From NCBI GenBank assembly GCA_902800905.1, contig CADCGC010000003.1, positions 102,291-149,397 on the forward strand: a stretch of DNA of 47,107 nucleotides. Direction: 5' to 3'. The position numbers were made by a program, and so were the translations under genes. Of the stretch, positions 33,864-46,819 are shown piece by piece. The stretch comes from an uncultured Erysipelotrichaceae bacterium (GTDB lineage: Bacteria > Bacillota_I > Bacilli_A > RFN20 > CAG-826). The notes beneath the pieces are model-generated. The model was not told the DNA's origin. It saw only the letters and a program-made list of their open reading frames with translations, and searched no databases. Position 1 is the first letter of the stretch. Every line of letters starts with the position of its first letter.

Positions 33864-34727
33864 GTGAGAATACTTACTTTTGATCACGATAATAACAATG
33901 CTTACACGATTAATTTTCAGAGTAAGATTGATTTTACTTACCACATAAATACATACGACTTTCCACTAGTGCATTCTCATAAAGATTACTGGGAATTTAC
34001 TTTAGTAACAGGTGGAAAAATCATCAATAAAAGCAACCATGGCGTTAGAGAGTGCGGTCCTAACTCACTCTTTGTTTCTAACCCCGATGATGTTCACTGT
34101 CTTATAAACGCCAAGCAAGAGGATGGAGAAAAACTCCGCTACATCAACATAATTGTTAGAGAAAGCAGGCTTCTTAAACTATTAGAATCTTTCTCTCCAT
34201 CATTCATTTCGTTTTTGAAACAGGATAAAGAAGTTCATCCGTTCCCTGATTCCTATGAAATGGAAATTGAAAATGTCTTTCACCGCATCAAATTAATTGA
34301 GAAAGATAATTGCGATTTATATAACGATATGGTGTGTTCCGCTCTTCTTATCATTCTTCGTTTTCTTTTAGATTGCTCTCATAAGAATAATGAAATCAAT
34401 GAATGGGTTGCGGAATTATATGAAAAAATGCGCTCACCAGACTTCATCAAACTCAATGTTGATGGTCTTTGTGAGGCAATGGATTATTCTCGACCTCAGA
34501 TGAACCGATTAATGAAAAAATATCTCAATACCACTCCGCACGATTTCCTTGTGGATTGTAAATTAAGATATGCTGAAGGTCTACTTCAAGCTAGTGATAT
34601 GAACTTACAAGAAATTGTAGAGGCAGTCGGCTATTCATCTTTTTCTGCCTTTATTCGCAACTTCAAAAGTAAATATCATTACACTCCGATTAGTTATAAG
34701 AAAAGAATTCAAAATAAACCTTTATGA
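33864..34727 (+). CDS. AraC-family transcriptional regulator
   Basis: A 287-residue regulator and the only clear plus-strand protein gene in the first 46 kb. The N-terminal cupin-like sensor (~1-150) has VHSHKDYWEFTLVTGG; the C-terminal double helix-turn-helix (~190-285) has LNVDGLCEAMDYSRPQMNRLM and LQEIVEAVGYSSFSAFIRNFK, the AraC signature. It starts with GTG and lacks a ribosome binding site. Divergent placement from GH130 indicates control of the sugar operon, presumably activation when the glycan-derived inducer binds. Its 3' end overlaps the convergent ABC gene by 19 bp. Confidence 0.92.
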   Translation: MRILTFDHDNNNAYTINFQSKIDFTYHINTYDFPLVHSHKDYWEFTLVTGGKIINKSNHGVRECGPNSLFVSNPDDVHCLINAKQEDGEKLRYINIIVRESRLLKLLESFSPSFISFLKQDKEVHPFPDSYEMEIENVFHRIKLIEKDNCDLYNDMVCSALLIILRFLLDCSHKNNEINEWVAELYEKMRSPDFIKLNVDGLCEAMDYSRPQMNRLMKKYLNTTPHDFLVDCKLRYAEGLLQASDMNLQEIVEAVGYSSFSAFIRNFKSKYHYTPISYKKRIQNKPL

Positions 34728-36232
34728 TAAATTTCTTTATGGTTTTCCATATTGATTTCTTTATCAAATATAGAATTTAGAACAAGTCCTCCAACTAAAA
34801 GCAAAAGTGGGAGTATGAAAATAGCGTATATAAAGAACAAGATTGTTTTCACTATGGCTAATCCATATGGAAGAAATTCAATTAGAAGTGGAAGTATACA
34901 CGTAATTGAAAAGCAAAGAGCGGTTGGATAATGTTTTACCGCTAATAGGGCGCTATTACTAAAAGCCTTTAAAAATGGATTAGCGTAGATAACTGAATAG
35001 CCATAACAAAATAGAACAATAGGGAGTAATGCAAAAGCGCTTACTGCAGTTACCAAAATCACAGCCCAGAACGCATCAGTCACAAATAACAATAGACATA
35101 TAGAGGTTATCATAATGTCAAATATGAATGACAACGCTAGAAAACGAACTAAGTTCTGTTTAAGACCTTGTTTGAATGAGTCAAAAAACTGAACTCCTTC
35201 ACCCCAACATAATTGTCTGAATATTCGTGACACCCCTGCTAGACCAACACTAAACAGTAAAAAACCAAGATCATAGAAAAGTATAAAGTTCAAAACCAAA
35301 CTACGATAAAGTGATTGTCCAGATTCTGTGAGTGAACCATCAACATAATTATTAACATCTGCGTAAAATGACGCGAGTGTAAGGTCATTCCAAAGAGAGA
35401 CAGCAATAAGAGGAAGAATAAAAAGAAATAACATCATCCCTGTCGATATTAAAAGGCGATAACGATTTTTCAAAATATCCTTAAATAATTGTTTTCTATT
35501 GATAGGGAGTTCGATGTTTTCTTCTACTATCTTTTTTTCTAAATCTTTAAGAGGTAAATCTTTTTTTGAAGAATCGCGGACTTTAACAAGACCATCTTCT
35601 GTTAATGAATACATATTAGCGTCAAGTAGTTTTACTTCTTTTTCTGAATGTGAAGTAATAATGACAGTGGTTCCTTTTTCTTTCGCTGTTTTACGAAGAA
35701 ATAAAAGAAAGAATTCTCTAGATTCTTCATCGAGGTTAGAAAATGGTTCATCAAATAGACAAACATCTGGGTTTTTTATCATCGCTTTTGCAAACGCAAC
35801 TTTTTGTCTTTGTCCAAGCGAAAGTTGCTTTGGTTTTCTTGTTAAAAGATTTGAAATACCAAACAGAGATGCGATATTTTTCACTTCTCTATCAATTTCT
35901 TCTGGCTTTTTTAGTTGCTGTTTTAAAGGAAACGCCAAGATGTCATAGACAATTTTATTTTGGAAAAGAAACCCTTGTTGATCGATGTAGGCAATATTAT
36001 ATTTTGCTGATGGTTTTAAAACGTCACTACCATCAAAAAGGATTGTCCCATCATAATCAAATTGGCCGGCAATCGCTCTTAAAAGGGTGGTCTTGCCAAC
36101 GCCAGAAGCACCAATAATAACATTAATACTTCCACTATCAAAAAATCCGGAAACATTTTTTAAAACCGGATATTCTTTATGTTTTCTATCTAGGTATGTA
36201 ACAGAGAGATTTTCTAACTCAATTTTCGGCAT
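34709..36232 (-). CDS. ABC ATPase fused to a DUF624-like membrane domain
   Basis: A 507-residue protein. Residues 1-215 are a complete ABC ATPase: Walker A IGASGVGKTTLL, signature LSLGQRQKVAFA, Walker B VCLFDEP, with D-loop and His switch. After a linker, residues ~250-490 hold five or six hydrophobic helices; the middle stretch RIFRQLCWGEGVQFFDSF resembles DUF624/YesL proteins, which accompany sugar ABC operons. The fusion order ABC then DUF624-like is unusual. It is 54 bp after the SWIM gene, so it may be the last gene of the kinase/phosphatase operon, or serve the neighbouring sugar system. Substrate and direction are unknown. Confidence 0.75.
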   Translation of the reverse strand: MPKIELENLSVTYLDRKHKEYPVLKNVSGFFDSGSINVIIGASGVGKTTLLRAIAGQFDYDGTILFDGSDVLKPSAKYNIAYIDQQGFLFQNKIVYDILAFPLKQQLKKPEEIDREVKNIASLFGISNLLTRKPKQLSLGQRQKVAFAKAMIKNPDVCLFDEPFSNLDEESREFFLLFLRKTAKEKGTTVIITSHSEKEVKLLDANMYSLTEDGLVKVRDSSKKDLPLKDLEKKIVEENIELPINRKQLFKDILKNRYRLLISTGMMLFLFILPLIAVSLWNDLTLASFYADVNNYVDGSLTESGQSLYRSLVLNFILFYDLGFLLFSVGLAGVSRIFRQLCWGEGVQFFDSFKQGLKQNLVRFLALSFIFDIMITSICLLLFVTDAFWAVILVTAVSAFALLPIVLFCYGYSVIYANPFLKAFSNSALLAVKHYPTALCFSITCILPLLIEFLPYGLAIVKTILFFIYAIFILPLLLLVGGLVLNSIFDKEINMENHKEIYHKGLF

Positions 36233-36285
36233 TGTATATTCTCTTTATCGTTTGTATTTTATAGCGTTTAAACATTAGTTTTCCA

Positions 36286-36612
36286 CTAATCAATAACCTT
36301 GAATCCAGCAAATACTGTTCTCTCGCTTTGTGACGCAGCACGATTAAGGGTTAATAATACCGCTATGACATGTTTACAAAAGCCAATCGTCTGTGTGCTT
36401 TCTTTACATGTACATTTGTGGTTTACAACTTTGTTATCCACTATTTCAATGTCGACCTTATATTCTTTGTCGTCGAACACTAATGCAGATACATGATTAC
36501 CATCAAAGTTTAATCTGCCAACTTTGTTGCCATTAAAAAGTAATTGTCCTTTTTGATAGACATTAATTGGGCATCTCAATTTAATTGTTTCTGGGTCAAT
36601 AATGAACGACAT
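36286..36612 (-). CDS. Small SWIM zinc-finger protein
   Basis: A 108-residue protein with a SWIM motif near its C-terminal half: CTCKESTQTIGFCKHVIAVL, which is C-x-C-x(9)-C-x-H. The preceding strands (VDIEIVDNKVVNHKC) are also typical. SWIM fingers bind DNA or proteins and are usually part of SWI2/SNF2 helicases or transposases; a stand-alone version is unusual. The ATG at 36612 begins 2 bp after the stop of the preceding lipoprotein (TAATATG); a TTG 18 bp earlier could also serve. It is translationally linked to the operon. Confidence 0.7.
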   Translation of the reverse strand: MSFIIDPETIKLRCPINVYQKGQLLFNGNKVGRLNFDGNHVSALVFDDKEYKVDIEIVDNKVVNHKCTCKESTQTIGFCKHVIAVLLTLNRAASQSERTVFAGFKVID

Positions 36613-36613
36613 A

Positions 36614-37741
36614 TTATTCGATAGGGACAATATTTAAATTTTCATACGCAAGAACACCGTCGAAATATAAATCGACTTTGTCTTCGTTATTAACTGTACT
36701 GTGTTTGAATTTATATTCGTTCACTCCATTAAAGATTTTGTTCTTTGGATTAGTTATTGATTGAGTGTTAACGATAGTGTCGGCTTCTTTGTTTGTTTCA
36801 AACCAACACCAGAAATTAGTGTTTCCGCCTTCCACTAATTCTTTAAACATAATAAACACTCTTCCTGGACTTGTGTTTGATAACTTGGCTTCAAAATCAT
36901 CACATACAAACTTAATCTTAGTCGCGTTGTCGATGAAGAAATTAGAATCTTCTTCCTCTTCATCCATTCCTTTTGTTTTTTTCAAAGAGTATGTATTTCC
37001 TAAAATTGTAATCTTATATGTTTCGTTGTTTTCAGAATACACAAAGCGAACGTTTGATGCGCTCTTTATATATGTTCCATCCGCGTCTCCGGAGATATCA
37101 AAACTTGTAGAGGTTTCACTATTTTGGATATTTGAGCCACTAAAAGATTTGCTTCCTTCTTTAAGAGAAATAGTTACTGGATAATGTTCTGCTTTTGTTC
37201 CTACATTTACTGTTAATGTGAATTCAGTAACATTAGAAACAATATATTCAAATTCGCCAACAAGATCTTTGTCTATATAATGAGGATCTTCTTTACTATT
37301 GACTGTTAATGTATATTGCTCGCCTGCTGCATCTAAAGTAAATTTATCTACTTTATCGACTAATTCGTGTTTTAAAACATATGTCCCTTTAGTGAACAAT
37401 TCACTTCTTTCATTTGCCATATATTTGAAAGTTATTTGTTCATAGTCTTCGCTAATAACACCTTCACTAGGGTATAAGATGAAATTCCATAAATCGTATT
37501 CAACAATTCTTAATGAGAGATTGAAATGAAAGTCATAATATAGTTCAACGTAAAAACGATTATCATCGTTATCATAAAAAGTTTGAAATAGTGTTTCTTC
37601 ACTGATTCCTGCTTCAATCGATTCAGCAACATTTTTAAAATAATGGCTTTCAGTGGTGCCTGGTTCATTTGACGATGCAGGTGAACACCCCATCAAAAGA
37701 GACATTGATGTAAATAGTAATATCATTCCTTTAAATTTCAT
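36614..37741 (-). CDS. Lipoprotein of unknown function, kinase-operon member
   Basis: A 375-residue lipoprotein with lipobox LMGC (Cys19). The ATG at 37741 is preferred over one 42 bp upstream because AAGGAG precedes it and the signal peptide starts there. The mature protein is beta-rich with at least two similar segments (YVLKHELVDKVDKFTLDAA, TYSLKKTKG) and no recognised domain. It lies 44 bp after the next gene upstream. Its export suggests that the intracellular phospho-signalling proteins in this operon act on or sense something at the envelope. Confidence 0.65.
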   Translation of the reverse strand: MKFKGMILLFTSMSLLMGCSPASSNEPGTTESHYFKNVAESIEAGISEETLFQTFYDNDDNRFYVELYYDFHFNLSLRIVEYDLWNFILYPSEGVISEDYEQITFKYMANERSELFTKGTYVLKHELVDKVDKFTLDAAGEQYTLTVNSKEDPHYIDKDLVGEFEYIVSNVTEFTLTVNVGTKAEHYPVTISLKEGSKSFSGSNIQNSETSTSFDISGDADGTYIKSASNVRFVYSENNETYKITILGNTYSLKKTKGMDEEEEDSNFFIDNATKIKFVCDDFEAKLSNTSPGRVFIMFKELVEGGNTNFWCWFETNKEADTIVNTQSITNPKNKIFNGVNEYKFKHSTVNNEDKVDLYFDGVLAYENLNIVPIE

Positions 37742-37784
37742 AAATAACACCACTCCTTGAGGTTTATAAAGTAATTCTACCACT

Positions 37785-38837
37785 TTACTTAACTTTAATC
37801 TTTCCTTTATTGGTTGTTTTTAGTGCTAGCTTAACTTTTCTCTTTCCAATCGTATATGTTCCGTTCACTTGTTGTACCCTTCTAAATGGAGCGTTGACCT
37901 TAGGTTTTATTCTTCTACCAGAGAAATCAAGTAAGATGTTTTGTTCACTAGTTGAAATAGAATATGAAGTTGGATTAGATGGATATAAATATCCAGAGAA
38001 CGATGTTTTGTTCATTGTGGCGTTAATTGAATCAATATCGCCGCATATGATTGCGTAGCCGTTATCTTGAATGAGTCGAAGCGAATCACAATCAGTGTTC
38101 ACAAGCACCATTCCTTTCTTTGAATAGACTTTCATTTCTCTAGTAATGAAACAAAACTTATCATTATCTTTGATATTTAATTGTTTGCCAGTGTATTTAA
38201 CAATAACTTTGTCATAGTTCTGTCTAGGAACATTGATTGTATATGATCCACGCTTCCCTGGGATATCAAATCTAATAACTCCATTTTTTCTTTTTGGCTT
38301 TAACGAACTAGTAACATCCACTCCTGCTTTGTTATAAATACGATAGTCACTAAACTGTCCACTTATAATCGAGAGGTTTTGACTTTTTGAGACCACAACG
38401 AGTGAAGCGATTGGTTTCATAACTCTACCAATCTTCACTACTGGTTGAGGAATGTTAGCTGGAGTGGCTTTCTTAATAGGTGCTCTAACTGGTTTAATAA
38501 CTTTTACTACAGTTTTGTTTTTAATTTCCATATATTCTTTTGGATATAGCCTAAGTAATAATGGTTCAACTGATTTCACATACTCCTGAAATGTATGTTT
38601 CTTATCCGCTTTTGAGATATAATCTTTAATCACCTTTTTAGCATCATTAAGCGAAAGAAACCTAATATTTTCGTAAATTGAGTTTCTATTAAGGATGTAG
38701 AAAGCGTCCGTTAGTTCTTTGTCAATATATGAGTTACCAACATAGTCAAAAAGAAAAGAACGAACTAAGAAGTTCTTTCTCAAAATTTTATAGTCGTATA
38801 TAGATGTTAGCTTATCGAAAGCGCTTCTGTAGTTCAT
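37785..38837 (-). CDS. Two-part protein with a beta-rich domain shared with the 43.2 kb gene
   Basis: A 350-residue protein without a signal peptide. The N-terminal ~115 residues are helical (LNDAKKVIKDYISKA); a Pro/Lys/Val-rich linker follows (VIKPVRAPIKKATPANIPQP), and ~145-350 is a beta-rich domain with short repeating strands. Its SIISGQFSDYRIYN resembles KIVSGEFLNIING in the protein at 43230-43670, as do the following strands, so the two may share a DUF4097-like or beta-solenoid module. The C-terminus is strongly basic (KLALKTTNKGKIKVK). Function is unknown. Confidence 0.6.
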   Translation of the reverse strand: MNYRSAFDKLTSIYDYKILRKNFLVRSFLFDYVGNSYIDKELTDAFYILNRNSIYENIRFLSLNDAKKVIKDYISKADKKHTFQEYVKSVEPLLLRLYPKEYMEIKNKTVVKVIKPVRAPIKKATPANIPQPVVKIGRVMKPIASLVVVSKSQNLSIISGQFSDYRIYNKAGVDVTSSLKPKRKNGVIRFDIPGKRGSYTINVPRQNYDKVIVKYTGKQLNIKDNDKFCFITREMKVYSKKGMVLVNTDCDSLRLIQDNGYAIICGDIDSINATMNKTSFSGYLYPSNPTSYSISTSEQNILLDFSGRRIKPKVNAPFRRVQQVNGTYTIGKRKVKLALKTTNKGKIKVK

Positions 38838-38853
38838 TCCCTTTTTCCCTTAC

Positions 38854-39591
38854 TTATTTAGAAGTCCATTCAAAGTCGACTTCAAAGATATATCCTTGTC
38901 TTACTGTTCCTGTTGGAGTAGAAGTATATAGTCCTAACGAAGACTGCCAGAAAGAAATCTTTCCTTCTTCATCAAAGATGAGTTCACAGTCTTGTCTAAA
39001 CGTTGAACCAATTCCTCCTCCTGTGGAAGCTGGTAATTCTGCAAAATGATGAGTTTGAAGAATTAGATGATTATTCTCATCAGTGTGATATGTATATGGT
39101 TCATTAAATGGGCTGACAAGATATTGTTCTGTTTCTTTAAACTCTTCATTTTCTTGATCGGTTTCATCAAGAAGTTCGTCGTCCACAAAGATATATCTAA
39201 CATTCATTTGTCCAAACGGTTCATAGTGATTGGTTTCTAATAGATTCTTAAAATCTGTTCCTTGATAGATATCTTTTCTTACTTGTTGCTCAGTTTGATC
39301 ACTGACATAGTATTTAACGATTGTGGTCAAGGAAGCATAATTTGACAACACTTTTTGTACACTGTCTTGACTTGGTGTACTTCTCTTTTTGTTTGCTAAA
39401 CTTGTAGGAAGTCTCACTAATCCCTTTGCTTCATTAAGTGTGATTTGTTTAACCGCATATTCTTGAAGGAAGACACCGTTATACCCAAAGTTACCAAATG
39501 TTTTCCTTGCTGCGTTAACGTTTACGTCATTACACGCACTTAAGGTTGACGCTGCTAATAAAGTTCCAAATATTTTAACTATTCTTTTCAT
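38854..39591 (-). CDS. Lipoprotein of unknown function, kinase-operon member
   Basis: A 245-residue lipoprotein with lipobox LSAC (Cys20). AGGAGA lies seven bases before the ATG at 39591, which is chosen over an ATG 18 bp upstream that overlaps the PP2C stop. The mature part is acidic and shows no recognised domain; FQEYAVK-like helix, a VRYIFVDDELLDE segment and a Gly-rich STGGGIGST loop are visible. It is the first of two lipoproteins encoded after the phosphatase in the operon. Confidence 0.65.
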   Translation of the reverse strand: MKRIVKIFGTLLAASTLSACNDVNVNAARKTFGNFGYNGVFLQEYAVKQITLNEAKGLVRLPTSLANKKRSTPSQDSVQKVLSNYASLTTIVKYYVSDQTEQQVRKDIYQGTDFKNLLETNHYEPFGQMNVRYIFVDDELLDETDQENEEFKETEQYLVSPFNEPYTYHTDENNHLILQTHHFAELPASTGGGIGSTFRQDCELIFDEEGKISFWQSSLGLYTSTPTGTVRQGYIFEVDFEWTSK

Positions 39592-39601
39592 TGCTCTTCT
39601 C

Positions 39602-40423
39602 CTATACATAGTTTTTAGCTTTTGTTTTTCCTTTGATGATAAAGGCTAGTGAGACATCGTCTCCCACTCCTAAACGAGTGGCGACTTCATCAATATATGA
39701 ATCAATATATGTTAGTGATTTTGAACATATGAGTTTCTTCACTGTTGGTTTGATGAATGATTCTTCAAGATTGTGATAACTCTGATATGGGCTTGATAAG
39801 CCGTCCGTACAAAGAAGGACTCCATCAAGACTTGAAGCATTCACGATTGTGACTCTTAGATACTTATATGCATCTTCCTGGCACATTGAATATGTAATAT
39901 TCCCTGCTGGATCATCTTCGTTATTGAAAAGCTTAACAATGTTCCCTTTATATATTCCTAACGCTTCAGTGTCTCCAATTGATATGACAATGAATTTGTT
40001 CTTATATAGCATCACTCCTGCTAGAGTTGTCCCATAAGCCTTAGAGGGATTGAATCTTAAAGTATCGATTTGAGTTTCATCTAAACCTTCCATCTCTCTT
40101 TTTCGAAAGGGCGAAGCCGCTAATTGTCTTTCCACTAACTTGTTATATTCGCATAAGACAAGGAGTTTGATCTTGTCATATAACGCAGATTCATCTCCTT
40201 CTTTGAAGAATTTTTCATTAATCTCTTTAAAGACATTGATTACTGACTCACTAGCGAGTTTAGAGCCGACGTGACTTCTAATATATTGAGGTCCTCCATG
40301 GCCATCACAACACGTGACAATGATTCTTTCCTTATCTTGATATATTGATGAATAATCCTGACATGGTTTGTTCTTTCTTATATGCGCGTAACCAGTCGCT
40401 GATTTTGCAAATACGTAATTCAT
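39602..40423 (-). CDS. PP2C-family Ser/Thr phosphatase
   Basis: A 273-residue PPM/PP2C phosphatase. Metal-binding motifs are complete: CQDYSS near the start, CCDGHGG (38-44) with Asp40, ISIGDTEALGIY, LLCTDGLSSPY and GVGDDVSLAF. It should remove phosphate from the kinase encoded in the same operon or its targets. It starts 1 bp after the second vWA gene and runs into the lipoprotein gene, so all three are co-translated. This kinase, vWA and PP2C combination defines TerY-P-type triads described by comparative genomics. Confidence 0.93.
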   Translation of the reverse strand: MNYVFAKSATGYAHIRKNKPCQDYSSIYQDKERIIVTCCDGHGGPQYIRSHVGSKLASESVINVFKEINEKFFKEGDESALYDKIKLLVLCEYNKLVERQLAASPFRKREMEGLDETQIDTLRFNPSKAYGTTLAGVMLYKNKFIVISIGDTEALGIYKGNIVKLFNNEDDPAGNITYSMCQEDAYKYLRVTIVNASSLDGVLLCTDGLSSPYQSYHNLEESFIKPTVKKLICSKSLTYIDSYIDEVATRLGVGDDVSLAFIIKGKTKAKNYV

Positions 40424-40424
40424 A

Positions 40425-41135
40425 TCACCAGTCCCAACTTTCTGTCTCGTTTAAAGCTTCGGCGATTTGCTGTTGGGCTAAGACGTTTTGAGTGACATGT
40501 AAACCTGGATCAATATTCAAAGAGGTTGATCTCACTTTACTCGCAGTTAAGACAATGATTTTGATGATATCTTTAAGCATCGAGGAATTGTAACAAGAGA
40601 TGACATCTCCATTACTTCCAACAAAATCTCTTAAAACTTTTATGGTTCTTTCATCATTTAGTTCAATCGCGATTCCATATCGTAATGCAACTTTAAACCA
40701 AGGAATATTAATTATCTCTTCAAGAGCTTTTTTATAGTCGTTTCCAGTTGGATGTCCATCACTTAAAAGAAGAATGATTGGGGCCGCTCCTCCAAAGTCA
40801 GGCATGATTCCTCCTTTTGACTCCTTTTTAAGGATTTCGCCGAGGTTCTTATACGCTAAATGGAGATTGGAGTAGCCTCCACACTTAATACCGTTATAGA
40901 CAAATTTGTCGATGAATATTGATTCTTCATCTTTGTAAAAGGAGGATTCTGTCGCAAACGGTATTAAGGTAAGGTAGAAGTCAACGTTTGAGTTCTCAAC
41001 TTGTAGTTCTTTTAGATAACTCTTAATGTCATTAATTGCTTCATCTACTTGTTTTATTCTTTTTCCTTGCATGGATTTAGAAGCATCAATAAGAAGAATG
41101 ATATTTAGTTTTTGTTTTGAAATTCTATCAATCAT
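40425..41135 (-). CDS. vWA-domain protein, TerY-like (second copy)
   Basis: A 236-residue single-domain von Willebrand factor A protein. MIDAS residues are present: LLIDASKSM (Asp17, Ser19, Ser21) and LLLSDGHPTGNDY. The GGAAPIILLLSDG region is shared almost word for word with the vWA protein encoded just upstream. The C-terminus ends in an acidic aromatic tail (ALNETESWDW). TerY-type vWA proteins are thought to form metal-dependent adaptor complexes with the kinase. It follows the first vWA gene by 15 bp. Confidence 0.9.
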   Translation of the reverse strand: MIDRISKQKLNIILLIDASKSMQGKRIKQVDEAINDIKSYLKELQVENSNVDFYLTLIPFATESSFYKDEESIFIDKFVYNGIKCGGYSNLHLAYKNLGEILKKESKGGIMPDFGGAAPIILLLSDGHPTGNDYKKALEEIINIPWFKVALRYGIAIELNDERTIKVLRDFVGSNGDVISCYNSSMLKDIIKIIVLTASKVRSTSLNIDPGLHVTQNVLAQQQIAEALNETESWDW

Positions 41136-41150
41136 CTTATGACACCTCTT

Positions 41151-41876
41151 TTACCATTCAACGTCTTCAATTTCTTCTAATCCCTTTTCAATTTCTTGAA
41201 TGGCGACTTCTTCTTGAGAGACTGGGGCGCCAGTAGAAGAAACTTGAGAGGAAGATGATTTAACTTTACTTGCGGTAATAGCGATAACTTTGATGACTCT
41301 TCTAAGAGCTTCCGCAGTATAGACTTTTAATACTGTTTCTGGATTACCTGTGAATTTAGTCAAGACATCCATTGCTTCTTTAGTGTCAATTTGGATCGCT
41401 AAAGCATATTTAAGAGCGACTTTAAACCATCCCTTTTTCTTTAATGAGGCAAGATGATTTTCCCAATCTGGACTCGTTGGCATTCCATCACTCATCAAAA
41501 TGATGATAGGCGCGACTCCTCCAATATCAGGCATCTTTCCACCGCTCTCTTTTTTACATAAGAACTTCGCTAATTCATCATATGCTTTCGAGTAATCTGT
41601 TCCTCCTTCGGTGGTGACATCGTTCCATTTGAAGTCACTAACACTCTTTGGTTCAGAATAGACCCATTTGCAATTTTCCGAGAAAGTCATGGCGCTGATC
41701 ATGATTTCCGCGTCACTTGTGTCTTCTTGGATTTCTGGCATGATGGAGACGACATCTCTAATCGCATTATTAACTGCGCCGATTTTTTCTCCTTCCATGG
41801 ATCCACTATTATCGATGACGAATACTAAATTTAATACTTGTTTGCGAATACCTTCGCCTAATGTTGCGTCTTTCAT
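41151..41876 (-). CDS. vWA-domain protein, TerY-like (first copy)
   Basis: A 241-residue vWA protein with MIDAS motif FVIDNSGSM (Asp22, Ser24, Ser26) and IIILMSDGMPTS. It is paralogous to the next gene over its whole length (GGVAPIIILMSDG, WFKVALKYALAI, ITASKVKSSS). A linker rich in Ser/Val/Ala leads to a tail IEKGLEEIEDVEW that parallels the other copy. The two may form a heterodimer binding kinase and phosphatase. It lies 35 bp after the kinase gene. Confidence 0.9.
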   Translation of the reverse strand: MKDATLGEGIRKQVLNLVFVIDNSGSMEGEKIGAVNNAIRDVVSIMPEIQEDTSDAEIMISAMTFSENCKWVYSEPKSVSDFKWNDVTTEGGTDYSKAYDELAKFLCKKESGGKMPDIGGVAPIIILMSDGMPTSPDWENHLASLKKKGWFKVALKYALAIQIDTKEAMDVLTKFTGNPETVLKVYTAEALRRVIKVIAITASKVKSSSSQVSSTGAPVSQEEVAIQEIEKGLEEIEDVEW

Positions 41877-41911
41877 TTACTTATTTTTCTCCTTTATTAT
41901 TCACGCTTTAT

Positions 41912-43228
41912 TTAGTTAGTGAGGATTTCACCAATCACTCCATCTTTGAATTTGATTTTTAGATTATTAATGATTGGAATAACTCCATCCTTACTAATAG
42001 TTTTTTCGTTTCCTTCCTTATCTTTGATAAGGATATCGTTATCTAACTGCAACTTAATTCCCCATAAGCTTGGATTATTTTTGTTGATTACTACTTTTCC
42101 AATTGGGGCATTGTAATTAGATGAATATTTATCAATATGACATTCATAGACATACTTGTTTGGTTCTAGAAGCACTCTATTCTTTCCAATATGGAGATAA
42201 CAGAATCTTCTAGTCGCACTCTTACAATATGGACATTTAGTGTTTTTCTTCTTTTCGTTAAATCCATATATGTATTCTTGTCCGCATGTACAGGTGATGA
42301 GTTCATCTCTAAAGCGGCAGAGTAACTTAATCCATTCAAGTTCTGTTGTTCTTCCGTTTTCTCTATCTTTTAAGCCATCCACAAATGTCTTATGGAATCC
42401 AGCTTTGATATAACTAGGAAGATCTGGATATTTCTTAATGACCGCTGAATGGTAACCTCTAATTGGTCTATTAGACTTATCTTTTTCGTTAAAGATATAG
42501 ACTGGATGAGAGCCAAACATTTCATATTCAGCTTTCTCATCAACAATCACATATTTCTTTAAACACTCTCCTTCAAACGGATTTCCCATACATAAGGCTA
42601 AGAAGAGGATGATAGCTAAAGAGAATCGATCAGAGTGAGTGTCTGGCATTTGTCGATCACCAGTATTTCTATCTTTATCTCCTCTAACGATTTCAGGAGC
42701 CATATATCTCATCTTTCCTAGAACCCCAAGATTTCTTTTATCTGCGGTTACGTTATCGTTATCACAGATAAGAAGACTTCCTTTTTCTGGGTCTAAGAAG
42801 AAGCTTCCATCATTAAGGTCTTGATATGAATATCCTCTTTCATGAAGGAGTTTGAAACTCTTCACTAGTTCAATACACCAGTTGAGCATGATTCTTTTAC
42901 TCTTGAATTTGTGTTTACCAGTAAGGTAAGAAACAAATGAGACATAGTTTGTTGGACGGAGGTCCATCAAATATCCACATGAGTCATCATCGAATTCGAT
43001 ATATTCTTTTGGCCACAAGAAGTTAGAGGAAGGTGATCCTTTAGCGATGTTATTTCTTAAGTTATATTTGAAATCGCTACTAGGGATATCTTTGTAGTAT
43101 TTGAAAGCGTATTTATCGCTTCCATAAGTCACTAGATATACTTCGCCTTGTCCTCCTTCTCCTAAGAGATCTAAGATGGTGACTTTCTTACCGTTATAGT
43201 CAAAGCTTTCATTTTTCTGAAATTTCAT
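41912..43228 (-). CDS. Ser/Thr protein kinase-like protein with zinc ribbon
   Basis: A 438-residue protein. The kinase domain (~12-310) has the Gly-rich loop GEGGQGEVY (23-31), ATP Lys43, a catalytic-loop YSYQDLNDGSFF with Asp137 (the usual HRD His and loop Asn are replaced), metal-binding DND (156-158) in place of DFG, and APE (177-179). It is probably active but non-canonical. Four cysteines (Cys313, Cys315, Cys332, Cys335) form a zinc ribbon, followed by a beta-rich C-terminal ~85 residues that may be FHA-like in role. The ATG at 43228, one base after the previous stop, is favoured over a GTG 21 bp upstream. No membrane segment. Confidence 0.88.
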   Translation of the reverse strand: MKFQKNESFDYNGKKVTILDLLGEGGQGEVYLVTYGSDKYAFKYYKDIPSSDFKYNLRNNIAKGSPSSNFLWPKEYIEFDDDSCGYLMDLRPTNYVSFVSYLTGKHKFKSKRIMLNWCIELVKSFKLLHERGYSYQDLNDGSFFLDPEKGSLLICDNDNVTADKRNLGVLGKMRYMAPEIVRGDKDRNTGDRQMPDTHSDRFSLAIILFLALCMGNPFEGECLKKYVIVDEKAEYEMFGSHPVYIFNEKDKSNRPIRGYHSAVIKKYPDLPSYIKAGFHKTFVDGLKDRENGRTTELEWIKLLCRFRDELITCTCGQEYIYGFNEKKKNTKCPYCKSATRRFCYLHIGKNRVLLEPNKYVYECHIDKYSSNYNAPIGKVVINKNNPSLWGIKLQLDNDILIKDKEGNEKTISKDGVIPIINNLKIKFKDGVIGEILTN

Positions 43229-43229
43229 C

Positions 43230-43670
43230 TTATTTATACCTTTCTCCACCTACCCAGTCTTCTCCTTGAACAGGAAGTTTTGGGAGATTGGTTTTAGTGG
43301 TTCTAGTTTGACTTTTAAGGGGTTTCTTTAGTGATATTTCGCCTCTTCTTACATATTCTCCCGCTGGAGAATTGAAGAATATTTCTTTAACTGGGCCATC
43401 TACCACTAAGTCACCACAATCGGAGTTAAAATCAAGTCTTCCAATGACTGCATTTCTTACTTTTACTTCGGTATCTCCAGCCGAGGTTGTGATATTGATA
43501 CATTCATATTCACCCTCAGGGAGCACTAACTCTAAATCATCGGTTGTTTCAATCGATAACACCCCATGCTCGTATGAGCGTGTTCCATTAATAATATTTA
43601 AGAATTCTCCACTGACGATCTTGATGTCATCAGCGTTTGAGTTGATGTTTATGATTTTGATTTGTTCCAT
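43230..43670 (-). CDS. Beta-rich DUF4097-like protein in the kinase operon
   Basis: A 146-residue protein starting at the ATG (43670) two bases after the stop of the 38-codon membrane peptide. Its strands alternate hydrophobic and acidic residues (IKIVSGEFLNIING, VKVRNAVIGRLDFNSDCGDLVVDGP), a pattern of parallel beta-helix DUF4097-like modules. The C-terminal ~35 residues are basic and flexible, ending WVGGERYK. It shares the VSGEF..IING motif with the protein at 37785-38837. No signal peptide. Its role may be scaffold or substrate of the kinase encoded next. Confidence 0.6.
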   Translation of the reverse strand: MEQIKIININSNADDIKIVSGEFLNIINGTRSYEHGVLSIETTDDLELVLPEGEYECINITTSAGDTEVKVRNAVIGRLDFNSDCGDLVVDGPVKEIFFNSPAGEYVRRGEISLKKPLKSQTRTTKTNLPKLPVQGEDWVGGERYK

Positions 43671-43672
43671 AT

Positions 43673-43789
43673 TTACTTCACCATCCCTTGAAACCAATTT
43701 GCGATATAGTCAAACCATCCAAATTTGACGGCGACGATTCCTAGGGCTACTAAGCATAGCCACAGGAAGATGAATCCTAATACTTTCAT
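43673..43789 (-). CDS. 38-residue single-pass membrane peptide
   Basis: A short frame starting at the ATG that overlaps the TAA of the Ntn-hydrolase gene (TAATG), so it is translationally coupled. It begins MKVLGFIFLWLCLVALGI and has one helix followed by an amphipathic Trp-rich tail (FGWFDYIANWFQGMVK). It ends 2 bp before the next ATG. The tight packing argues for a real gene even though it has no recognised family; it could anchor or regulate the peptidase or kinase at the membrane. Confidence 0.65.
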   Translation of the reverse strand: MKVLGFIFLWLCLVALGIVAVKFGWFDYIANWFQGMVK

Positions 43790-44430
43790 TATTTTTTTCC
43801 TCCTTGGTTGTCCTTAATGAGATATTTGTTCTCATTCTTTTCAGTGACAATTTCGAATTCCGTATTTGATGTATCCGCTAAGATGATTGGGTAATCAACG
43901 TAGATGTCGTTAGCGGCGCTGGCCTTGATTGCCTTAACAATCCTTCTTCTAGCGCCTTGTCCTTCTGTGGAGAGAAGGCTTCCGATTGCCTCTTGGGCTC
44001 CACTTCCAATTGCGACATAGTCGTCTATTTCAATGACACACCCATCGGAGTTGATCATGAATAGCTGGTCCTTATACGCGAATAGGAAGCTTGAGTCCAT
44101 ATATTCGAGATAACCGTCTGACATTTTGAGGTATCCTGCTTCCTTCAATGTTTTAGTTATCTCAGGAACTAGATACTTGACGACGAATCGGTAGTTAACT
44201 CTGTCTCGATATTCATCGTAGTCATCGATGACATCTCTCATTAGTCTTACGACGTTCGCGTCTCTGACGTTTCCGACATGTGCCATTAGGCAGTTCTCGC
44301 TTCCGTCCACTTTCCAAATCTTGTAATTGTTTGGATTCTTTAGTGTTGTTCTTGTTCCGCCTTTGGTCACTTGTGAATCGGACCCAATGACGATTTTTCC
44401 TTCGCTTTTAATTGCCACTACTACACTCAC
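43789..44430 (-). CDS. Proteasome/HslV-like Ntn-hydrolase
   Basis: A 213-residue member of the proteasome beta/HslV fold. It starts SVVVAIKSEGKIVIGSDSQV after the initiator Met, aligning with the HslV start [20 protein letters not shown]: Ser2 would be the N-terminal nucleophile as in CodW-type HslV, Asp18 matches Asp17 of HslV and Lys37 probably matches Lys33. AIGSGAQEAIGSL matches the Gly-Ser-Gly turn. It is too long for plain HslV (~175) and nearer Anbu-type relatives. There is no HslU or other unfoldase beside it. GTG start with AAGGAGG six bases upstream. First gene of the kinase/phosphatase operon. Confidence 0.82.
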   Translation of the reverse strand: MSVVVAIKSEGKIVIGSDSQVTKGGTRTTLKNPNNYKIWKVDGSENCLMAHVGNVRDANVVRLMRDVIDDYDEYRDRVNYRFVVKYLVPEITKTLKEAGYLKMSDGYLEYMDSSFLFAYKDQLFMINSDGCVIEIDDYVAIGSGAQEAIGSLLSTEGQGARRRIVKAIKASAANDIYVDYPIILADTSNTEFEIVTEKNENKYLIKDNQGGKK

Positions 44431-44596: not shown

Positions 44597-45403
44597 TTAA
44601 AATTGAATACAATCAAGCGCAAGCATGATTACGAAGCCAAAAATGAATGACCAAACACCAAAATGGTCATGTCCTTCGCTTGTCATTTCTGGAATCATTT
44701 CTTCAGCGACAACATAAATCATACAACCCGCTGCAAACGCTAAAGCCCAAGGCATGATTCCTTGAATTTGCATTGCTAAGAATAAACCAACAATCGCAGC
44801 GATTGGTTCCACTATTCCTGATAACATACCAAACAAAAATGCTTTAGAAGAAGATCCGGTCTCTCCTTTGATTGGTAAAGACACCACTGCGCCTTCTGGA
44901 ACGTTTTGAATTCCAATACCAATTGCGAGTAGTAACGCTCCTACTAATAGAGCTTGATTATTTGGTTGAGAAAGAGCGACACCAAAAGCAATTCCAACAG
45001 ATAATCCTTCAGGAACATTATGGATGGTAACTGCAAGGAACATTTTGCTAGTTTTACTCATTCCACGTGTAGGAAGTCCCTCGTCTTGTTTTTCTGCTGA
45101 GTGAAAATGAGGAACAATTTTATCAATAAGCCACAAGAATCCAGCGCCTAATACGATTGAAATCATAACAATTACCCAAGTAGGCATATATGAGACTTCA
45201 GTTTCTAGAGCGGGTTTAATTAACGAGAAGAAAGAAGCAGAGAACATGACGCCAGCCGCAAATCCCACAAATATTTTATTTAACTTTGGAGAGATTTCCT
45301 TTTTCCTAATAAAGAAAACAAATAACGCGCCTAACGTTGTACAAACAAATATTAATGGTATTCCAATTAATGGATAAACATATTCCGCCATAACTATTTC
45401 CAC
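44597..45403 (-). CDS. ZIP-family metal transporter
   Basis: A 268-residue ZIP (ZupT-like) transporter with eight predicted helices. The signature HNVPEGLSVGIAFG lies in the fourth helix and NVPEGAVVSLP in the fifth, both with the metal-binding Asn/Pro-Glu residues. A long His-containing loop (PHFHSAEKQDE) lies between the third and fourth helices. It likely imports Zn2+, Fe2+ or Mn2+. Its start overlaps the HMA gene by 10 bp, so the two are co-translated and probably cooperate, the small protein carrying metal in the cytoplasm. Confidence 0.93.
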   Translation of the reverse strand: MEIVMAEYVYPLIGIPLIFVCTTLGALFVFFIRKKEISPKLNKIFVGFAAGVMFSASFFSLIKPALETEVSYMPTWVIVMISIVLGAGFLWLIDKIVPHFHSAEKQDEGLPTRGMSKTSKMFLAVTIHNVPEGLSVGIAFGVALSQPNNQALLVGALLLAIGIGIQNVPEGAVVSLPIKGETGSSSKAFLFGMLSGIVEPIAAIVGLFLAMQIQGIMPWALAFAAGCMIYVVAEEMIPEMTSEGHDHFGVWSFIFGFVIMLALDCIQF

Positions 45404-45642
45404 CCAAGGAGTTTCTTAACTGCCTTATTCTTCACAAAACTTGTAATTCTATATCCAGTAGGGTCAAGTATCTTTTTAAAATCTTCAATACTTAAATCTA
45501 AAGTAGTAAACACTATTGCTGTATTTTTTAAGTGTGATGCAACCACTTTTGTAGTTTCTATATTTTTCACAATAAGGTCTTTAACATGCACTTCACACAT
45601 CCCACATCTCATTCCATCTATTCCTAATATGTATTTATACAT
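45394..45642 (-). CDS. HMA-domain metal-binding protein
   Basis: An 82-residue heavy-metal-associated domain protein, with GMRCGMCEVHV (10-20) giving the GMxCxxC site and a ferredoxin-like fold in the remaining strands. Similar stand-alone proteins act as copper or zinc chaperones. AGGAGG precedes the ATG. It is the first gene of the metal operon, behind a palindromic operator, and overlaps the ZIP gene. Confidence 0.9.
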   Translation of the reverse strand: MYKYILGIDGMRCGMCEVHVKDLIVKNIETTKVVASHLKNTAIVFTTLDLSIEDFKKILDPTGYRITSFVKNKAVKKLLGWK

Positions 45643-45718: not shown

Positions 45719-45779
45719 AATAAATGATTATTTTTATAAGAGGACAAACGATGTCCTCACGATTACTATTGACAGCATA

Positions 45780-46312
45780 TTAAACTATAGGCACATTGGA
45801 ACCCAGTGAAGTCATCTTGCTGATGGCTGGGGCCTAGCCAAAAGAGGAAGTTATGTGGGATACTGCATAGCTCTCTAAGACCAGTATTGGTTCTCGGGAA
45901 TAAAACACCGCTTTGGTTAGAGGCGCAATACGCTCTTCGATGTAAACGGCCACCCGAGTAGGCACGACAAGAGGCTCCGTAGCAATACGTCCCACGTGAT
46001 GATGTTGGCGTGAGAAACCACCATCTGCGTTCTCAAAAGAAGTGCTCGGCTTGAAGGCAGGTAACTGTCTATAACTACTTTGGTGGGCTTGAGTAGGAGA
46101 ATGCCGGATTATTTTTTAGGCTTAGAACTATGCAATGATCCGCTGAAGCTCTCTGAAAGTTGGAGGATTATCTACTTCCTCCCGTTGTCTCGGTTAGTAA
46201 TAACCCATTCCGGAAGTCTTAGGGTCGCTACCTATTACTCAGCCCGGCGTGAACGTGCGTGAATAACAAATTAGAGTAAGTATTGTATGACGAAGGTCGC
46301 CAGTGTTTTTTT
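45780..46312 (+). ncRNA. Large structured RNA candidate, family unknown
   Basis: About 530 bp with roughly half G+C, far above the window average, and no convincing reading frame. Local stems on the plus strand: TGGCT/AGCCA (45824-45840), ACCA/TGGT (45880-45891), CTCGGG with CCCGAG (45893-45898, 45953-45958), GGCAG-GTAA-CTGTC (46056-46069), GGAGG/CCTCC (46162-46182) and GGTTA-GTAA-TAACC (46192-46205). Two GUAA (GNRA) tetraloops exist only if the plus strand is read. A T7 tract at 46304-46310 could end it. TTGACA at 45768-45773 lacks a well-placed -10 box. I see no RNase P, tmRNA, SRP, 6S or rRNA signature. Ends are approximate. Confidence 0.6.
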
Positions 46313-46341
46313 AATTAATAATGGGGATTTGCAAGAGAATT

Positions 46342-46515
46342 ATGAGATTTGTGAGAGTTGTTAAGGTTGATGTTGAGGATTGTCCAGAGCCAGTCCAAGA
46401 GTATGTTAGGAAGTACGCTCACCTCAATCCAATTGTTTTAAAACACGATGATGTTTACACCGTCGTAACACCGTATTATGAGAAAAAGAAAAGACACCCC
46501 GTTAAGGATGTCTAA
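46342..46515 (+). CDS. Possible small acidic/basic protein after the RNA
   Basis: A 57-codon frame starting MRFVRVVKVDVEDCPEPVQE, with AAGAGA five bases before the ATG; an ATG 21 bp upstream also opens the frame but has no ribosome binding site. Composition is protein-like (alternating hydrophobic strands, basic C-terminus KKKRHPVKDV). It overlaps the end of the convergent XRE gene by 78 bp, so one of the two may be shorter or not real. Function unknown. Confidence 0.4.
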   Translation: MRFVRVVKVDVEDCPEPVQEYVRKYAHLNPIVLKHDDVYTVVTPYYEKKKRHPVKDV

Positions 46516-46707
46516 TGCAGATACCTGGAAGATATCCGCGAAAGTATTAACAACGTCAATACTCCCGGTACCATCGTTTTCGATACGGCGTAAATTTCTT
46601 ACGCTGTAGCCAACGATGTCGGCCAAGTAGTCCTGTGTCCAGTGTCTACTTAGTCTTAGGCTCTTGATGGACTGGCCAATCAAGCGCGAATCAATTAACT
46701 TGCTCAT
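46438..46707 (-). CDS. Small XRE-family helix-turn-helix regulator
   Basis: An 89-residue protein with an XRE/Cro-type domain at ~8-66: IGQSIKSLRLSRHWTQDYLA (10-29), VGYSVRNLRRIENDGTGS, then VVNTFADIFQVSALDILNG. AAGGAGGT lies eight bases before the ATG. The last ~19 residues run into sequence shared with the opposing frame and are not part of the domain. No toxin partner is evident beside it; it may regulate its own promoter. Confidence 0.82.
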   Translation of the reverse strand: MSKLIDSRLIGQSIKSLRLSRHWTQDYLADIVGYSVRNLRRIENDGTGSIDVVNTFADIFQVSALDILNGVSFLFLIIRCYDGVNIIVF

Positions 46708-46819
46708 AAACTACCTCCTTAATAATTGATCTCTAAATTGCTTTTGAAAGGATATTGATTCGCTCAGGTAGTATTTTTATGAGCGTGATTATTATAAGAA
46801 AGATTGCTTATTTATTCAA

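Follow-up and report, generated by a model that had tools for sequence, protein, structure and literature searches.

A ROOL RNA gene with a convergent HTH gene and an upstream palindrome in the chromosome of a rumen-type Bacilli genome

Features of the locus

The window, i.e. the whole stretch of 47,107 nucleotides that was analysed, forms the end of a 149-kb contig; the genome measures 1.85 Mb. It is a rumen-type MAG of the Bacilli, and the other genomes of the genus are rumen MAGs too, carrying the label Bacilli or Erysipelotrichaceae. An archaeal or CPR host, which the small genome size and the proteasome-like gene had suggested, was rejected in view of these genus relatives. The features relevant to this study are the following:

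44597–45642, minus strand: chromosomal left flank, syntenic with relatives; ZIP transporter (44597–45403) and HMA protein (45394–45642)
45740–45758, no strand: palindrome GAGGACAAACGATGTCCTC, conserved at ROOL loci of the window type; putative operator of the ROOL promoter
45778–46319, plus strand: ROOL RNA gene (RF03087), by cmscan and covariation; likely transcript about 45788–46312
45781–45786, plus strand: candidate −10 element TAAACT, from sequence comparison (TATACT or TATAAT in relatives)
45793–45799, plus strand: 5′ strand of ROOL helix P1, ACATTGG, pairing with CCAGTGT at 46300–46306 (consensus pairing)
46306–46312, plus strand: T-tract of seven T, read from the sequence as 3′ end or terminator of ROOL
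46438–46707, minus strand: ORF of an HTH_3 (XRE family) regulator, formally 89 aa (Pfam HTH_3, 4.4e-7)
46483–46513, minus strand: hairpin AGACATCCTTAACGGGGTGTCT (46492–46513) resembling an intrinsic terminator, with a T-rich tract, in frame inside the HTH ORF
46686–46784, minus strand: putative leader of the HTH mRNA, complementary to its own start region
46791–46796, minus strand: candidate −10 element of the HTH gene, TATAAT, directly preceding the leader

Identity of the structured RNA

Analysis of the whole window by cmscan yields a single match at gathering level, the ROOL family, with 209.4 bits against a cut-off of 99.1 (twice the Rfam gathering score) and an E-value of 5e-46. Model positions 1–574 of 574 are covered, and the match is complete and not truncated. 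The initial annotation had described an unassigned RNA at 45780–46312 that it could not match to any large ornate RNA; the Rfam search proposed there returns a significant match to a known family, the outcome named there as refuting this label, and 'unassigned' is thus refuted. The remainder of that description holds up well. Its ends are nearly exact, and a large ornate structured RNA on the plus strand, correctly placed in the size class of ROOL, OLE and GOLLD, is borne out by the full-length match and by covariation, the second check suggested: in an alignment of ten relatives, at least one compensatory double change is seen at 62 of 136 predicted pairs. Also as described, the RNA forms a GC-rich island (45–51% G+C at 45800–46200, 28–40% on either side), contains a GUAA loop (ggcaGGTAACtgtc, at about 46056–46069), ends in the T-tract and lacks a good reading frame, the longest plus-strand ORF inside it being 60 aa with a TTG start, which is unconvincing as coding sequence. 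The earlier rejection of RNase P and tmRNA stands, and OLE and GOLLD are rejected as well, since the gathering score is reached by ROOL only; tRNA and tmRNA genes were not found in the 47-kb window. The folding energy of the single sequence is weak evidence of structure (z of −1.4 for the plus and −0.1 for the minus strand), and the RNA structure is established by the covariance-model match together with the covariation in ten homologues. Membership in the ROOL family is thus virtually certain.

ROOL RNAs are known from phages and prophages and self-assemble into homo-octameric or hexameric cages (PMC12286853). GOLLD and OLE are likewise large ornate RNAs forming homo-oligomers (PMC12286853), which differ from ROOL in sequence and structure. 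The RNA described here resembles the Rfam family in its coverage from P1 to the 3′ end, in compensatory changes throughout, in the lack of an ORF and in the T-tract, which has T-rich counterparts at the 3′ end in 9 of 10 aligned relatives. With 542 nt it is shorter than the 574 model positions, the variable linker being shortened.

Genomic setting and distribution

The genes read beside this ROOL are chromosomal: the ZIP transporter, the HMA protein and a kinase/PP2C/VWA cluster. Nine genus relatives carry the same ZIP–HMA pair without ROOL and thus display the ROOL-free site; homology to them breaks off at about 45690, roughly 50 nt short of the palindrome. A prophage origin of this copy was rejected, the genes on its flanks being chromosomal and in synteny with those of relatives. 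Most ROOLs found in IMG/VR contigs stand among tRNA genes, and a location in a phage or tRNA island is typical of the family, though not required; the ROOL of the window lies in neither, and tRNA genes are absent from the window and from the surroundings of the first four ROOL loci. It differs from the typical ROOL as a stand-alone chromosomal unit with a palindrome and a convergent HTH gene. In named phages or plasmids, blastn retrieved no ROOL with the window sequence or with a phage ROOL as query. In the survey, ROOL was found in 3 of 19 genomes of the genus and 9 of 96 of the family, a patchy distribution as expected of a mobile gene.

Several further observations concern the surroundings of ROOL. 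The cluster at 34709–44430 (minus strand) encodes an ABC ATPase, a PP2C phosphatase, two VWA proteins, a protein kinase and a proteasome/HslV-like subunit (35.8 bits, far under the HslV cut-off of 137), an unusual signalling and protease set for Bacilli. Directly after ROOL lies an ORF of 64 aa (46321–46515, plus strand) without Pfam match, overlapping the 3′ part of the HTH gene; at the same place, loci L041 and L044 have different small ORFs that share 60% identity. In one genome (G014) ROOL occurs twice, at sites that are unrelated: one copy adjoins carbohydrate genes (L042) and the other defence genes (L044). A second type of chromosomal ROOL locus (L049, genome G055) lies near a TnpB/IS605 gene and has neither palindrome nor HTH gene. 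Finally, a group I intron (L076:11331–11582) lies in a phage array of tRNA genes that includes a ROOL as well.

The HTH partner gene

Convergent with ROOL lies the small HTH gene, the conserved coding part of which comprises about 72 aa (about 46492–46707). The same HTH_3 protein is present at nine ROOL loci with otherwise unrelated flanks; two further ROOL loci reach contig ends before the position of the gene, and L049 lacks it. Identity to the protein of the window is 54–79% in the seven relatives first compared, locus L022 being additional. Among the 96 family genomes, strong matches (E < 1e-42) occur in 7, all of them ROOL-positive and with the match close to ROOL: the two are immediate neighbours in six, and other genes intervene in one (L047); the next-best matches (E 6e-11) are generic HTH proteins of other genomes. 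The hypergeometric probability of this co-occurrence is 3e-9. Relatives of the protein were not found in viral contigs, and the phage ROOL loci are without an HTH gene of this type. Against PADLOC the protein displays weak similarity to generic HTH models only, with no match to a specific known defence system. We regard it as very likely that ROOL and the HTH gene form a module. In L047 the module is split by a ThsB-like TIR gene (L047:11871–12701), and another gene follows the HTH gene on the same strand.

Palindrome and ROOL promoter

The palindrome has the form GAGGACA-N5-TGTCCTC, and its centre lies 45 nt ahead of CATTGG in helix P1. It is found upstream of ROOL in all 11 loci of the window type that were read, with a distance of 45 nt in seven, of 46 and 48 nt in two, and of 62 and 67 nt in another two. 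ROOLs without an HTH gene of this type (L049, Ligilactobacillus salivarius, phages) lack it. The full 19-bp form occurs once in the window, at ROOL, and its core at three sites genome-wide, two of which are away from ROOL. With so few genomic copies, a reading as SOS/LexA site was rejected. Palindromes as module ends were likewise rejected, as a right-hand copy exists in two loci only and is terminator-like there.

The candidate −10 element of ROOL has no −35 match at a spacing of 16–18 nt; the TTGACA at 45769–45774 is too close to serve. By sequence position, the centre of the palindrome would lie near −43 of the ROOL promoter, which is an activator-like placement.

An HTH reading frame without stop codon before its terminator-like hairpin

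The HTH frame passes through the hairpin and the T-tract, with no stop codon before. The same is true of all HTH loci but one (L039), which has a TAA inside the T-tract. Conservation of the protein stops at the hairpin, and the ORF beyond the T-tract is conserved neither in sequence nor in length. A hairpin of intrinsic-terminator type precedes the first in-frame stop, as in the arfA and brfA genes. When one set of criteria is applied, 8 of 9 ROOL-linked HTH genes (7 of 8 of the window type plus that of L. salivarius) have such a terminator inside the ORF, compared with 3 of 315 other ORFs (Fisher 5e-13). The feature is present in 3 of 184 control ORFs from other regions of the same genomes; in 11 other XRE genes it was not found, versus 8 of 9 HTH genes of the window type when L022 is included. 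With −8 to −12.5 kcal/mol the stems have modest stability, and RNA polymerase may read through to a stop codon further on. A conserved protein motif (DILNG, DILVVDGDV) accounts for the hairpin in part. Relatives of the L. salivarius-type HTH protein that have no ROOL (faecal phage contigs) keep the hairpin and lack the T-tract, from which it follows that the hairpin is partly driven by the protein.

In Bacillus subtilis brfA and Escherichia coli arfA, a rho-independent terminator stands before the stop codon, and expression is restrained by trans-translation (PMC8012679). The HTH gene resembles these as a small protein gene with a terminator-like hairpin ahead of its stop codon. It differs in its product, which is a DNA-binding HTH_3/XRE protein and not a ribosome-rescue factor, and tagging is putative here. 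By this analogy, control of the HTH gene through a nonstop mRNA and tmRNA appears probable.

The leader of the HTH mRNA may impose a further constraint. Its segments GCTCAT (46779–46784) and ACTACC (46768–46773) are complementary to the start codon and RBS (46702–46715), and GCGAATCAA (46755–46763) is complementary to HTH codons 6–8 (46686–46694). Judged from the sequence, these out-of-order pairings could possibly form a pseudoknot that hides the RBS. The pairs covary, with GCTCAT/ATGAGC in the window, ACTCAT/ATGAGT in L022 and GTGCTTACC/GGTAAGCA in L046, and duplexes of leader and start region have a mean energy of −22.5 kcal/mol when matched versus −18.0 when mismatched. The pairing is significant in most loci, not in all: shuffling supports it strongly at some loci but not at L048, where 95 of 300 shuffles were equally good.

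Comparison with Ligilactobacillus salivarius

A close described case is the lncRNA LSL_1885 of L. salivarius, a ROOL on the megaplasmid pMP118 (130.4 bits to the ROOL model) that adjoins the HTH gene LSL_1884 (Cousin et al., PMC5643018). Like the window, this locus combines ROOL with a small HTH gene that runs without stop through a hairpin and T-tract (GACATCCTCGTTGTTGACGGGGATGT, then TGTTTTTTTATTTTTT). The ending is alike in five plasmids; one plasmid allele has a wholly different sequence after the T-tract and still no stop there. The neighbours of ROOL differ between strains. Unlike that of the window, the L. salivarius HTH protein belongs to another, non-alignable subfamily (24% identity over 49 aa, E 0.22), its gene is arranged in tandem with ROOL instead of convergent, and the GGACA palindrome is absent. 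Relatives of this other HTH protein without ROOL (L113–L120) are found in faecal phage contigs and in the Ruminococcus albus plasmid pRUMAL01; in four of these loci (L113, L117, L118, L120) the gene adjoins tRNA genes, which links this HTH group to tRNA islands.

In L. salivarius, ROOL reaches very high levels, while the HTH mRNA is unstable and does not accumulate; strains highest in HTH mRNA are also highest in ROOL, a relation confounded by plasmid copy number, and deletion of ROOL, or of ROOL plus the HTH gene, has no clear phenotype (PMC5643018). The literature searched, mainly outside subscription journals, contains no account of the palindrome, the nonstop frame, the placement beside defence genes or the generality of the HTH partner.

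Defence genes in the neighbourhood

The module repeatedly adjoins defence genes: SoFic, TIR-NB-ARC and AbiEi/AbiEii in L039; a TnsA-like endonuclease, a NERD helicase and Druantia DruE in L041; a DdmD-like helicase in L044; a type I R-M system with IetA and HEPN in L045; and macro, Fic and a type II restriction enzyme in L046. In L047 the ThsB-like TIR gene lies between ROOL and HTH, and in L. salivarius strain 2D a type I R-M system stands directly before ROOL. In the window and at L042 and L048, no recognised defence gene adjoins the module. PADLOC models matched at 1e-10 number 164 in flank proteins versus 40 in control regions, a contrast that is only suggestive of defence placement, the control regions having been chosen arbitrarily. 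These matches come from neighbour genes and not from the module itself; those listed for the control regions are mostly housekeeping-like, plus one defence reverse transcriptase.

Discussion

The RNA family is known, and its setting, a unit of palindrome, ROOL and HTH gene at a site that is ROOL-free in relatives, is new. On sequence grounds we consider the ROOL membership, the HTH partner, the fixed position of the palindrome and the stop-less HTH frame as demonstrated. These data are best explained by two genes that form one compact unit in the chromosome of a member of the Bacilli, in which the HTH protein controls ROOL via the palindrome and is encoded by a nonstop mRNA, a reading we consider probable as a whole. 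Taken separately, control of ROOL by the HTH protein, presumably through binding of the palindrome, has a good likelihood as judged from sequence. Activation is somewhat likelier than repression, because the palindrome centre lies near −43 and the promoter has a −10 without a −35 element. We hypothesize that the 3′ end of the HTH mRNA falls within the T-tract, before any stop codon, that tmRNA rescues the ribosomes, and that the HTH protein is tagged and destroyed, so that its supply would be tied to tmRNA capacity; folding of the leader back on the RBS would limit its synthesis further. The protein would accumulate only when trans-translation is overloaded, for instance by mRNA cleavage in phage attack or stress, and ROOL would then build up as a homo-oligomeric cage.

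Alternatively, the locus could hold an ordinary ROOL, a stray phage-borne copy left in the chromosome with an HTH neighbour by chance, and merely add a member to the family. The known phage and prophage copies (PMC12286853), the tRNA arrays of IMG/VR and the patchy distribution would fit. This explanation is improbable and already disfavoured through the association with HTH gene and palindrome: the same HTH protein is shared by nine ROOL loci whose flanks are unrelated, and the 96 genomes have it nowhere else, the palindrome recurs at a fixed distance, the phage loci lack an HTH gene of this type, and tRNA genes are missing from the window and the first four loci. In another reading, the palindrome would be the site of a host regulator, with the HTH protein acting elsewhere and both genes co-inherited as cargo of defence islands. 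The two core palindromes away from ROOL would agree with this idea, which we find rather unlikely given that the full 19-bp form occurs in the window only at ROOL and that ROOLs without this HTH type have no palindrome.

Two further alternatives, neither of them likely, concern the regulation. The hairpin inside the ORF may be a normal terminator, or an attenuator, between two convergent genes that lie close together, with read-through frequent enough for a regular stop codon to be used and no special part for trans-translation. In several loci the ROOL and HTH terminators stand back to back, a hairpin at the ORF end could save space, and L047 has a further gene on the same strand after HTH; yet the arrangement is rare among other ORFs of the same regions, the tandem gene of L. 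salivarius has it too, and the ORF past the T-tract is not conserved. Secondly, XRE/CI-type proteins are often repressors, and ROOL may be on by default, trans-translation keeping the HTH protein low and rescue overload shutting ROOL off. The abundant ROOL and unstable HTH mRNA of L. salivarius are in accordance with such a repressor, while the missing −35 element, the activator-like position of the palindrome and the parallel levels of HTH mRNA and ROOL across strains (with copy number as confounder) speak against it (PMC5643018 for the L. salivarius data).

As to the purpose of the proposed HTH-controlled unit, our leading guess, a tentative one, is that it serves in phage conflict or translation stress, since the unit repeatedly adjoins defence genes. 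In its most specific form, that ROOL and HTH constitute an undescribed mobile RNA-based module of phage defence or translation stress, in which a regulator with a nonstop mRNA detects when trans-translation is exhausted and turns on an RNA nanocage, the proposal is speculative. If true, it would provide the first functional context for ROOL RNAs, which are among the largest RNA-only cages known and reach up to the abundance of 16S rRNA. The nonstop regulator, the fixed palindrome and the placement beside defence genes lead to testable hypotheses on when and why ROOL is made, which may be addressed in the harmless commensal L. salivarius, where ROOL mutants exist.
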